A stretch of DNA of 64,000 nt from Nitrospinaceae bacterium. GTDB lineage: Bacteria > Nitrospinota > Nitrospinia > Nitrospinales > Nitrospinaceae. Where the stretch lies: contig JANQEK010000015.1 in the NCBI GenBank assembly GCA_028278405.1, forward strand, positions 62,001-126,000, given 5' to 3'. Position numbers and translations under genes: made by a program. This document shows, piece by piece, positions 28,177 to 45,240 of this stretch. The notes under the pieces were generated by a model. That model searched no databases. It saw nothing but the letters and a program-made list of their open reading frames with translations, and was not told the origin of the DNA. Numbering within the stretch: the first letter of the stretch is position 1; every line of letters begins with the position of its first letter.

Positions 28177-31029
28177 TCAGGGAAAGAGGCGGATTAGTAA
28201 ATTCAATCCGTCCATGCGCACGGCCCGACCCGATCCTGGAACATGATTTCCAGGCAACACGATGCCATATTTCGGACTCGACCCCGTAATCAACGGATGT
28301 GACACGGTAACAAAGTCACCCCGCTCCAATTCCAATTGATCGAGAAATACTTCACAAGCCACCAAGGTTTGAGGAACTTTTAGCTCCTCCAGATAAAATC
28401 GGGCCAAATCAACCGCCATGGCGGAATCGCGGCACCAATCGAATAAAAATTGTTCCGGTTGTTCGCGCTTGCCGAACAACTGGATCTTGTCATTGTCCGA
28501 CTCCACATGGGTTTTTCGGTAATAACCCGCCTCCCAGTCGCGCTGGTAGCTCAACTCAATATGATTGACCACTTCACCGGTGGGTGTTCGTTGCAACCGG
28601 ATGCGCCCCGCTCCGGTCTCAGGATCGAGACGCACCATACCTTCGGTCAGGGCCTTCACTTCCCGGCCCACTGCAACCTGCGACTGATTGATGGGGCGAA
28701 ACTGCAGACGAGCTCTACCGCCGGGGGCCCAGAACAGGTACGAGCGGCTTTCCTTCATCCATTGCCGCCACAGCGTATCCAATAGCACTTTATTCTGAAC
28801 CACTCCGGCCAACCTGTATCCGCCGGCATTGTCAAATTCGGTACCCGCCTGGTCAAATGCCGAGTCGTCGATAACGGAAGCCATCGGGCCCAACAGGTTT
28901 AGAATCGACCACCGGAACACATGATCGGGACGCTCGATCACCGCATCCGGAGTTCCTGTGATCGTTCCCGCGCCATCATCCTTGATGCCGGACACACCGG
29001 CAGTGATTTCATCAGTGGTTTGCAGACGCCGTCGAGCGTATTCAATTTCAAACGCCGTGTGAACGATATAGACCGTCCGGCCGTCCGAAGATCCAGAGTA
29101 CTCGATCTCGATAATCTTATCTTTGAACCAGGCCCAATCGTGTGCCACCTGGTCGGTGATATCAAAAAAGTCGACGACTGAAAGGCTGCTTTTTTCAGTA
29201 ACGCTGTCCAGAAGCGGCGTCGAATTGTGTGGCGAAACACCGCCAAACTTTATAGTGGCCACACCCGTTGGTTTGGTTTCCACTTCTTCCGGTAGATCAA
29301 CCTCGCCTTCATAGGTAATGATCCGGCTGACATTGGATATTCGTTTTAAAGCGTGCGACGTCGTCGCATCAGTGCGAATCCAGATTCGGGTCAGGTTTGT
29401 GTTGTTGACCACCCGAGTGGTGTATACGCTGGGAAGGCCGACCAGTGTATTTAAAAATATTTCGTGCGAGTTGCTCCCGACATCCAGAAAGTTTCTGATC
29501 GCCGGTTTGGTGGTCGACCAGGTATCAAAGGATTCATGATCCACTATATATTCAATGCTCTTGATGTTGCCCGGCGGAATGTTTGGGAAATCAATCGCAA
29601 ATTTTCGACCGTTGGACGCATTCAGGTTGATGCCTTCCGGAAGAAGATTGGAAACCGGGTTCTGGATATACGTCGTCATTCGCGGGAGCTTGTGCTCATG
29701 CTCCGGATCTGTGATGGGGAAACCCAAATCATCCAAATGAGTATGTCCGATGTCTGTGCTGCCCGTGGTTACGGCACGATCTTCCGGAGGCGGTTTCGAA
29801 AGGGTCCCGATGAGTGTATCGTCGACCCGGACGTTCAGGGTGTCGTTGGGGATTTGCTCCTCGGCCCAGTGCTCCACACGAACAAGGACCTTCAAAATCT
29901 GCCCCAGCTCCGCCATGTCGTCTGTCTGCTGAAGTCTCAGCTTCGGATTGGCTTGTGAAATTTTTGCGAATTGAGTACGGCTTTTGGGATCCGTGGCCAA
30001 CAAGGGATTCTGCGCGGTATTGCCGGAGGCTTCGATATCGAATTGCGTCTGCAGAAACCGTGTATCGATCGAAACCACCTTGCGCGGTTTTTCACTGAAA
30101 ACCACCTCGCACGCGGCCAGATCAATGGTATAGCCCGCGCTATCCGCCAGGTGCCCGGCAACCTTGACATTGCTGATGGCCGAAATGGGATAGGCGGGAT
30201 CGCTCAGCAGGTACCGATGGTCGGACACGCTTTCGACCACTTCGTCGCCTGCGTAGTGAAACTCGCGAATGCCGGTGCATCCGGTAAACTGAGTTCCGGT
30301 GGCTCCCGAATAACTGATGACGTCATCGTTGATCACTACCGATCCGCTGGCGGCAAACCCAATCGTCGAAGCGACGTCCAACGTGCTCGCTTCAGGAATC
30401 GCCACAGACGTCAAACGGGTGGTAACCACCCTGCGCACAGGCACACCCGGTACACCCTCCACCTGGCCGATGACGATCGGCTTGATCCGCCCGACGGAAG
30501 CTTCCGGAGCGTCCGGATAATCCGCTAGTGTCAACGTATTGCCCACCTGCAAGCGACCATGATGCGAGGATTCCACAGCCAGATGCAGAGAACACGTATT
30601 CTCGTCGTATTCCACCGGATCAACGACTCGTGCTGTCAACAGTTCCGTTTGATCGGCGGAGACCAGGGCTTCGCCCTCGAACCACTGGTATAAGATACCC
30701 GTCGCCGATTCCGGCGGATACTCGAGGAACAAATCAGAAAAACGTTGCGGCCCTTCCCCAAAATCCACCGGGGCGTTGATCAACCGCACGTTGACCTTCT
30801 TCTCTTTTATGGTTTGCAACAACGCGTCCGGTTCAGCCCCTGTGATTGCGCCCCAGTCCTCGACCAGCGGCAGCCAGTCCACACCCTCAATGGTTACAGA
30901 GCGGTCGGAGAGATTCAGCATCTTGGCCGGAAGGGCGCCAATCGCCGGCCAGGCGATTTTCAGGAGATTGACCGGTTCACTGCTTTTTTTGTTCCTGGCG
31001 GCGTCGAAACCGCTGGTAAAGATGCGCAT
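28177..31029 (-). CDS. phage tail-like protein, 950 aa
   Basis: Large ORF at end of structural operon; C-terminal LERGDFVTVSHPLI and tail-like layout; assignment mostly from context. Confidence 0.6.
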   Translation of the reverse strand: MRIFTSGFDAARNKKSSEPVNLLKIAWPAIGALPAKMLNLSDRSVTIEGVDWLPLVEDWGAITGAEPDALLQTIKEKKVNVRLINAPVDFGEGPQRFSDLFLEYPPESATGILYQWFEGEALVSADQTELLTARVVDPVEYDENTCSLHLAVESSHHGRLQVGNTLTLADYPDAPEASVGRIKPIVIGQVEGVPGVPVRRVVTTRLTSVAIPEASTLDVASTIGFAASGSVVINDDVISYSGATGTQFTGCTGIREFHYAGDEVVESVSDHRYLLSDPAYPISAISNVKVAGHLADSAGYTIDLAACEVVFSEKPRKVVSIDTRFLQTQFDIEASGNTAQNPLLATDPKSRTQFAKISQANPKLRLQQTDDMAELGQILKVLVRVEHWAEEQIPNDTLNVRVDDTLIGTLSKPPPEDRAVTTGSTDIGHTHLDDLGFPITDPEHEHKLPRMTTYIQNPVSNLLPEGINLNASNGRKFAIDFPNIPPGNIKSIEYIVDHESFDTWSTTKPAIRNFLDVGSNSHEIFLNTLVGLPSVYTTRVVNNTNLTRIWIRTDATTSHALKRISNVSRIITYEGEVDLPEEVETKPTGVATIKFGGVSPHNSTPLLDSVTEKSSLSVVDFFDITDQVAHDWAWFKDKIIEIEYSGSSDGRTVYIVHTAFEIEYARRRLQTTDEITAGVSGIKDDGAGTITGTPDAVIERPDHVFRWSILNLLGPMASVIDDSAFDQAGTEFDNAGGYRLAGVVQNKVLLDTLWRQWMKESRSYLFWAPGGRARLQFRPINQSQVAVGREVKALTEGMVRLDPETGAGRIRLQRTPTGEVVNHIELSYQRDWEAGYYRKTHVESDNDKIQLFGKREQPEQFLFDWCRDSAMAVDLARFYLEELKVPQTLVACEVFLDQLELERGDFVTVSHPLITGSSPKYGIVLPGNHVPGSGRAVRMDGLNLLIRLFP

Positions 31030-31032
31030 GAA

Positions 31033-31350
31033 CTATTCCGCAATTGAGATTTGCCGGTCGATCAATCGTAACTTGTCTTCGATGGCGACCGGACTTTCCT
31101 TTTTGCGTTTCAGAATTTCCTCCCGCACCCGGCTTTTCAGAATCTTGATCAAGGCCGCTTCCCAGTCAGCGGTGTGTTGCAACTGACGGTAAAATTCCGC
31201 TCGCACGGGAATAACACAGGAGAAGGCGGGAGTCCCGTCCAGGGTGTGGACTTGCACTGGGAATACCTGTGAAGACCCGATCTGTTGAATCCCCTCCACA
31301 TCCACCTCAAAGGTGAACTTTTCCGGATCTGCGTTTTGCCAGTCGATCAT
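31033..31350 (-). CDS. small phage-cluster protein, 105 aa
   Basis: Operonic position. Confidence 0.5.
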   Translation of the reverse strand: MIDWQNADPEKFTFEVDVEGIQQIGSSQVFPVQVHTLDGTPAFSCVIPVRAEFYRQLQHTADWEAALIKILKSRVREEILKRKKESPVAIEDKLRLIDRQISIAE

Positions 31351-44562: not shown

Positions 44563-44873
44563 AATGTTTTCACCCTGTCGCCGATCTCTTCCAGGTGGTC
44601 GCCGATAAACCGAGCCGATGCCTCCTCCCCTTTTTGAAGCAGGAAATTGACCACCCCTCTCAGGGCGTCGATCAGCAATTGCTCGCGGTCGACCGCCTGT
44701 TCCTGCATCATGGTTTTCCGGATGTCGAGGATATGGCCGGTGTACATCCCGTGAATCCGGTGAAGCTGGATGTCTTCCGGCGAAACCTTGAGGACCTCCT
44801 GGATCGCCTGTTTGGCATCGACCATTTCCTCCATCAACTGCTGAAGGGCGTGACCCGGACCAGCCTCATTCAT
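44421..44873 (-). CDS. phage packaging-associated protein, possible small terminase (by position)
   Basis: Overlaps the terL 5' end; ATG at 44873 (MNEAGPGHALQQLMEEMV). Confidence 0.5.
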   Translation of the reverse strand: MNEAGPGHALQQLMEEMVDAKQAIQEVLKVSPEDIQLHRIHGMYTGHILDIRKTMMQEQAVDREQLLIDALRGVVNFLLQKGEEASARFIGDHLEEIGDRVKTFWQDSKAFPNWPAATTTSANSSPARSRLSVKAPRNKKKTANNARSRI

Positions 44874-45240
44874 GGGAAGGGAGTCGGTGAATCGTTTTGC
44901 TGAGTTCGTTGATGAGTTTGAAGATGCGCCCGATGGCGCTTTCAGTCTTACCGACTGTGCGGTAGAAACCTTCCTTGGAAACAAACTGTTCGTACAGATA
45001 CTTCTGATCGACGAGGCGAGAGGCTTCGAGTTTTTCGAGGTCGCGTTCCAGCTTGTCCATGCGCTTTTCCAGCTCCCTGCCCCGCTGATCGATTTTGTGC
45101 GTCAGTTCCTTCTTGAGGTCGGTAAAATGCCGGCCGCTTTCGGCAATCAGGCGCTTCATCAACCAGCCAATCACCCACACCCCGATCATCAGTGACAAAG
45201 TGATGAAAGGCGTAACTGTCCGAATTATCTCCAGAGTCAT
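44866..45240 (-). CDS. TM plus coiled-coil phage-cluster protein (DUF2730-like)
   Basis: N-terminal TM ITLSLMIGVWVIGWLM then charged coiled coil. Confidence 0.55.
   Translation of the reverse strand: MTLEIIRTVTPFITLSLMIGVWVIGWLMKRLIAESGRHFTDLKKELTHKIDQRGRELEKRMDKLERDLEKLEASRLVDQKYLYEQFVSKEGFYRTVGKTESAIGRIFKLINELSKTIHRLPSHE

Follow-up and report, generated by a model that had tools for sequence, protein, structure and literature searches.

A phage-derived gene cluster fixed beside dnaA in an order of Nitrospinota is a probable gene transfer agent-type element inherited with its hosts

A Nitrospinaceae bacterium (GCA_028278405.1, contig JANQEK010000015.1) carries a block of phage genes next to dnaA. 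We analyzed a stretch of 64,000 nucleotides of this contig, here called the window, to which all positions refer; the block occupies 28177-45240. We conclude that it is probably a vertically inherited element of the gene transfer agent (GTA) type, domesticated from a prophage that would have been captured beside dnaA in the ancestor of the order. GTAs are tailed, phage-like particles of caudoviricete origin that package mostly random host DNA and deliver it to other cells, and their definition adds an endogenised genome, often at several loci, an own genome that cannot be fully packaged, and co-diversification with the host (PMC9662315). Among these features, we found genes for caudoviricete-derived particle proteins (by protein families and structure matches), an endogenised fixed locus and vertical inheritance. 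A preliminary description of the window had proposed a domesticated GTA-like element, and this proposal is supported by the order-wide dnaA locus, by congruent trees and by low ratios of nonsynonymous to synonymous substitution (dN/dS). The claim is stronger for the order than for the window's own species; in the window's genus the cluster is partly eroding.

The distribution of the cluster was analyzed in 64 genomes of the order (G and L numbers denote genomes and loci; f1 is the window's family). The large terminase subunit, TerL, was found in 30 of the 64 genomes, with around 60-65% identity between genera and families, and the capsid gene in 28. In every one of the 26 genomes with TerL and dnaA on one contig, the two genes are separated by 0.9-2.3 kb, and in the remaining four (G001, G044, G016 and G018) the contig stops at the cluster or just upstream. 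Three families, f1, f2 and f4, have the cluster beside dnaA-gyrB, and the fixed chromosomal locus is also seen in the single-contig genomes G008 and G017. The f4 genomes G014 and G018 carry the portal-to-tail block and dnaA on different contigs. The cluster, about 10-16 kb in size, has a gene order common to f1 and f2 and mostly to f4: a membrane coiled-coil protein, a candidate small terminase subunit (TerS), TerL, portal, protease, capsid, two small proteins, adaptor, a tail module where there is one, ring protein, a small protein and hub, followed on the opposite strand by a receiver protein and a repressor. The capsid was not found in 13 genomes from other orders of the class. In the window, 721 bp separate the end of the block (45240) from dnaA (45962), in agreement with the roughly 700 bp given previously. 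The term "origin-adjacent" holds as far as dnaA is concerned, but DnaA boxes are not enriched.

To compare inheritance of cluster and host, trees of TerL, portal, protease and capsid and of dnaA and gyrB were analyzed for 20 genomes. Both trees have 15 of 17 bipartitions in common, and those not shared have support below 95 in both. Patristic distances correlated with a Mantel r of 0.947, and 0 of 9999 permutations gave a value as high. The same branching is reflected in the genus and family assignments of the genome collection. The cluster is vertically inherited and co-diversifies with its host.

The genes of the cluster are under constraint. Nei-Gojobori dN/dS, given as medians over pairs with dS below 1.5, was 0.076 for TerL, 0.049 for portal, 0.060 for protease, 0.058 for capsid, 0.059 for tail tube and 0.11 for adaptor, compared with 0.038 for dnaA and 0.047 for gyrB among the host genes. 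Between the window and G007, values were 0.126 (TerL), 0.112 (portal), 0.073 (protease), 0.100 (capsid) and 0.215 (ring protein). Relaxed selection, with dN/dS near 1, had been raised as a counter-sign; the values found were 0.05-0.13. Constraint on the tail-tip genes is also seen in g2, which has no tube. Furthermore, in 20 of 20 genomes the cluster genes have a higher GC content than the host genes. A cluster GC above host GC has been reported for RcGTA as well.

Genomes without the cluster retain dnaA and the outer flanking genes, together with varied remains: the first cluster gene in G024, fragments as far as a broken TerL in the single-contig genome G031, repressor, receiver and an accessory fragment in G002, and the receiver in G023, G027 and G028. 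No remnant was found in G015, G055, G062 and G048, where 127-233 bp are left. Explaining presence and absence on the host tree takes 9 changes or more, a count that is itself blind to gain versus loss; loss is favored because the site is shared and the trees are congruent. The sequences thus favor absence by deletion and not by clean excision. Empty sites with att repeats had been named as evidence that would refute the GTA-like reading, and the cluster-free sites that exist are deletions with remnants, with no att repeats. Att-like ends were likewise not seen in the window, as noted before, since the longest exact match between the flanks (12 nt) was reached in 36 of 200 shuffles.

The genes of the block and its fixed neighbor are as follows.

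28177-31029, minus strand: predicted tail-tip hub or megatron-like protein, 950 aa (AlphaFold2 fold match; PF13550 weak)
31033-31350, minus strand: small conserved protein of the tail-tip region, 105 aa (orthologue at the same place in f1, f2 and f4, flanked by ring protein and hub)
31415-31831, start probably around 31789, minus strand: predicted tube-fold tail-tip ring protein, Dit/gpM-like (AlphaFold2 and Foldseek; DUF2460 weak)
31792-32475, minus strand: head-tail adaptor, Ad1/gp6/gp8-like (phrog_442 E 1e-19; TIGR02215 E 8e-27)
32459-32701, minus strand: small head-region protein, 80 aa (phrog_2616 E 2.5e-5; conserved order-wide)
32733-33122, minus strand: capsid-associated protein, 129 aa (phrog_5707 E 3e-22; conserved order-wide)
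33170-34360 (open reading frame opens at 34450), minus strand: HK97-fold major capsid protein (PF05065 E 7e-84; TIGR01554; RcGTA capsid in the PDB)
34404-34940, minus strand: prohead protease (PF04586 E 1e-24; TIGR01543)
34953-36137 (open reading frame opens at 36380), minus strand: portal protein (PF04860 E 2e-80; RcGTA portal in the PDB)
36361-42819: host-gene insert (Pfam; same-genus loci likewise have TerL and portal apart)
42943-44562, minus strand: TerL (phrog_38 E 7e-110; TIGR01630; invariant Walker and nuclease acidic residues)
44421-44873, minus strand: putative TerS (position and conservation)
44866-45240, minus strand: coiled-coil protein with a membrane anchor, leading gene of the cluster (conserved in first place in most relatives; dN/dS 0.07)
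45962-47308, plus strand: dnaA, the fixed host neighbor

Every structural open reading frame of the window cluster is intact. The listed frames of portal and capsid open too far upstream, and alignment placed their starts at around 36137 and 34360. The Walker and nuclease acidic residues of TerL are invariant in 25 of 25 sequences. For the TerS candidate no convincing Pfam match was obtained in 22 members and no DNA-binding domain was recognized; its identity is suggested by position. A small terminase without detectable DNA-binding domain is described as a GTA feature in PMC11841831. In line with the preliminary description, protein family searches of the window block recognized no genes for an integrase, replication, lysis or a tape measure; none for a tail tube was recognized either. 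The co-directional run given in that description, of terminase, portal, protease, capsid, gp6-like connector and tail genes, does lie entirely on the minus strand, but is broken by the 6.5 kb insert.

Some copies of TerL and capsid stand apart. The TerL genes of G020 (L087 1581-3422) and of L057 (10001-11842) share an in-frame insertion of about 94 codons near residue 290. A second, distant TerL with 22-24% identity on contig 10 of G000 (L088 12953-14185) probably belongs to a separate prophage. An orphan HK97 capsid gene was seen only in G033 (L080 9873-11072); it is 56% identical to the capsid of the cluster and stands beside the f4 copies on a long branch. Neither terminase nor portal is nearby, its neighbors are a pentapeptide-repeat protein and a Crp-like regulator, and this capsid may have taken on another role.

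The insert (36361-42819) is of non-phage content and lies between the end of TerL (42943) and the start of portal (around 36137). It encodes a PDZ lipoprotein and a cytochrome c on the plus strand, as well as small membrane proteins. A low-GC island at 39794-42819 encodes a 740-aa protein that combines an HExxH metallopeptidase-like part with a dCTP-deaminase-like domain (PF22769 E 7e-32), accompanied by two small partners. No homologue of the 740-aa protein was found among the relatives' loci compared, and PADLOC gave no match for the insert genes. TerL and portal are likewise apart in the same-genus loci L022 and L023, and adjoin each other in G008, G010, G011 and G017. Near the insert, genomes of the window's genus carry short duplicate fragments of portal (G007, L022 6807-6917) and of the TerL C-terminus (G001, L023 4651-4758), hinting toward a tandem duplication when the insert arrived.

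The families differ in their tail module. Between adaptor and ring protein, f2 encodes a neck protein (phrog_5), a 158-aa protein, a tail tube (PF18906 E 3e-10), small proteins and a weak tape-measure candidate. In f1, which lacks tube, terminator, stopper and tape measure, the genes of adaptor and ring protein lie directly next to each other, an arrangement also found in the viral contig L109. Because the long tube was lost in f1, a particle would be short-tailed there. No tail tube was found elsewhere in the window's genome, and the tube copies on contig 12 of G010 and contig 19 of G050 belong to separate prophage-like loci. Sequence searches of hub and ring protein against the PDB gave nothing useful, and only fold comparison provided matches. 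The ring protein model (AlphaFold2 pLDDT 82) matched tail-tip and baseplate rings in Foldseek (probability 1.0, best E 1.7e-3), and weak DUF2460 similarity was seen in 3 of 21 members. The hub model (pLDDT 72, pTM 0.44) matched the tail tips of lambda (8k35_A, E 9e-13) and T5 and of RcGTA (6tba_8A, E 2e-5), although global superposition on tail-tip hubs was poor; PF13550 (Phage-tail_3) was detected in 2 of 15 homologues, with a best E of 3e-4. The 950-aa protein is hence predicted to fold like a tail-tip hub, and the ring protein like a tail-tip ring.

Beyond the hub end of the block lies a cassette of putative regulators.

25655-26248, minus strand: candidate activator with a sigma-region-4-like C-terminus (C-terminal helix-turn-helix-like block kept in most of 17 loci)
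26245-26709, minus strand: companion protein of the cassette, 154 aa (conserved beside clusters)
26863-27756, plus strand: LexA/CI-like repressor with a helix-turn-helix and an S24 autocleavage domain (PF00717 E 6e-17; PF01381)
27756-28169, plus strand: single-domain response regulator (receiver domain; invariant phosphoacceptor Asp; conserved beside the cluster)

For the two proteins at 25655-26709, divergent from the repressor, Pfam gave nothing firm and the 154-aa companion has no family; a Sigma70_r4 match in the G008 homologue of the candidate activator is weak (E 0.008). The Ala-Gly site and the Ser/Lys pair of the repressor are invariant in 15 of 15 sequences, as would be expected for self-cleavage of the LexA/CI type. 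The repressor is present in 26 of 30 genomes with TerL and in 4 of 34 without (Fisher p 1.2e-9), the four being G002 and G013 (beside dnaA), G006 (a truncated copy) and G022. Hence, the repressor is kept and lost with the cluster. These sequence features would fit an SOS induction of the cluster.

How might such an element work? In the ancestor of the order, a prophage would have become established next to dnaA, been domesticated and then passed on vertically. The LexA/CI-like repressor and the response regulator would silence the cluster until DNA damage or another signal relieves them. Capsid, protease, portal and adaptor would then form a head, which a terminase without recognizable phage-specific targeting may fill with host DNA, and the tail tip may hand this DNA to related cells; the last two steps are read from the parts present. 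A more specific version of this model, an independent GTA across the order with a functional tubeless particle in one family (adaptor joined to ring protein and hub) that is released by SOS-type repressor cleavage, we regard as rather doubtful.

Several observations weigh against a GTA-type element. The dN/dS in f1 is about double that in f2, and constraint may therefore be easing in f1; dS is often saturated, and some copies in metagenome-assembled genomes contain stops (capsid of G052, TerL of G051 and G031). The carbon content of the capsid is not below that of phages, so that one signature of composition known from reports on RcGTA is absent here. Since dnaA and gyrB adjoin the cluster, the tree match alone would be compatible with linked transfer of the whole region, and the association with the repressor is partly linkage. 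The tube profile found no tube in f1 genomes except at the separate G010 locus, and the tape measure is missing, too. Within the window's genus, G002 lost the cluster, G005 retains TerL but lacks the stretch from portal to hub, and neither TerL nor capsid is seen in G003 and G006, whose assemblies are fragmented.

The cluster could instead be an eroding fossil, a GTA or prophage that functioned in the ancestor of the order, and perhaps still does in f2, but no longer in the window's genus. The insert between TerL and portal, the missing tube, terminator, stopper and tape measure, the deletion in G005, the absence from G002 and the doubled dN/dS of f1 all fit this explanation, which we consider a real possibility, if not the expected one. 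It has to account for the intact structural frames of the window, for window-G007 dN/dS of 0.07-0.13 in TerL, portal, protease and capsid, and for constrained tail-tip genes in the tubeless g2. Moreover, the tubeless layout is common to g1, g2 and the metagenome contig L109, and has therefore persisted.

A domesticated particle with another job, such as killing competitors or acting as a decoy, is unlikely. The repressor suggests damage-induced release and f1 lacks a long tail, but the ATPase and nuclease residues of TerL, the portal and the putative TerS are kept under constraint and would be needless in a DNA-free particle. An encapsulin-type nanocompartment is ruled out by the presence and constraint of TerL and portal.

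Concerning its origin, the likeness to RcGTA noted in the preliminary description holds for gene order, but the cluster is not derived from RcGTA. Both share the order terminase-portal-protease-capsid-adaptor-tail, the HK97 fold, vertical inheritance, purifying selection, the lack of replication and integration genes and regulators outside the structural run. RcGTA differs in its Rhodobacterales host, its capsid clade and its GafA/CtrA regulation, where the dnaA-adjacent Nitrospinota element has a LexA/CI-like repressor and a receiver, and lacks tube and tape measure in f1. The TerL proteins of the order form one clade (100/97) beside TerL proteins of viral contigs (100/99), and the capsids a single clade (100/100) that excludes RcGTA, which stands beside the viral contig L111 (88/93). 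Both proteins thus stand apart from phages, and the capsid also from RcGTA, and argue for an independent origin. The best matches among named phages, at 42-46% identity, are Casadabanvirus D3112/JBD26 for TerL, Geobacillus phage GBK2 for portal and Azospirillum phage Cd for capsid, all true phages that each match another part of the cluster; since the best phage differs by gene, the ancestor would have been mosaic. Membership in the RcGTA family (Rhodogtaviriformidae), acquired horizontally from Alphaproteobacteria, would explain the gene order and the best PDB matches (Rcc01687 for capsid, E 1e-70; Rcc01684 for portal, E 8e-69), which partly reflect the content of the PDB. It is very improbable, given the position of the RcGTA capsid, the better capsid match to phage Cd, the D3112-like nearest named phages of TerL and the lack of any match to NCBIfam GTA models. 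BaGTA of Bartonella and BhGTA/VSH-1 of Brachyspira, likened here by description and not by sequence, are likewise independently domesticated, host-kept phage clusters in other phyla. Two IMG/VR contigs, L109 and L110, fall inside the order's capsid clade with 71-77% capsid identity; nested in this way, they are probably host clusters filed as viruses.

Ordinary prophages of one group that repeatedly integrate beside dnaA could account for the phage genes, for TerL relatives of about 50% identity in viral contigs and for the patchy presence in 30 of 64 genomes, but this we hardly credit at all, as the congruent trees already refute its simple form, integrase, att and replication genes are lacking, remnants have differing deletion ends, and the viral contigs with the closest capsids fall within the Nitrospinota clade. 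An active or recent prophage was rejected, with no integrase, att ends or clean empty sites.

We favor a vertically inherited GTA-type element. GTAs with an established genetic basis form three independently derived groups (PMC9662315). Neither homology nor synteny nor gene content at present allows new GTAs to be located definitively, according to PMC11841831. Here, a candidate GTA in Nitrospinota is singled out jointly by its fixed position, the agreement of cluster and host trees, the constraint on its genes and the linkage with the repressor. A literature search, with subscription journals mostly outside its coverage, found no paper linking GTAs with Nitrospina or Nitrospinota. The order offers natural replicates, with at least 9 presence changes on the host tree and one family without a tail tube. 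Nitrospinota are described as the most abundant known oceanic nitrite oxidisers (PMC8026999), and, if our reading is true, the cluster would provide a route of gene exchange in these slow-growing, little-cultured bacteria.

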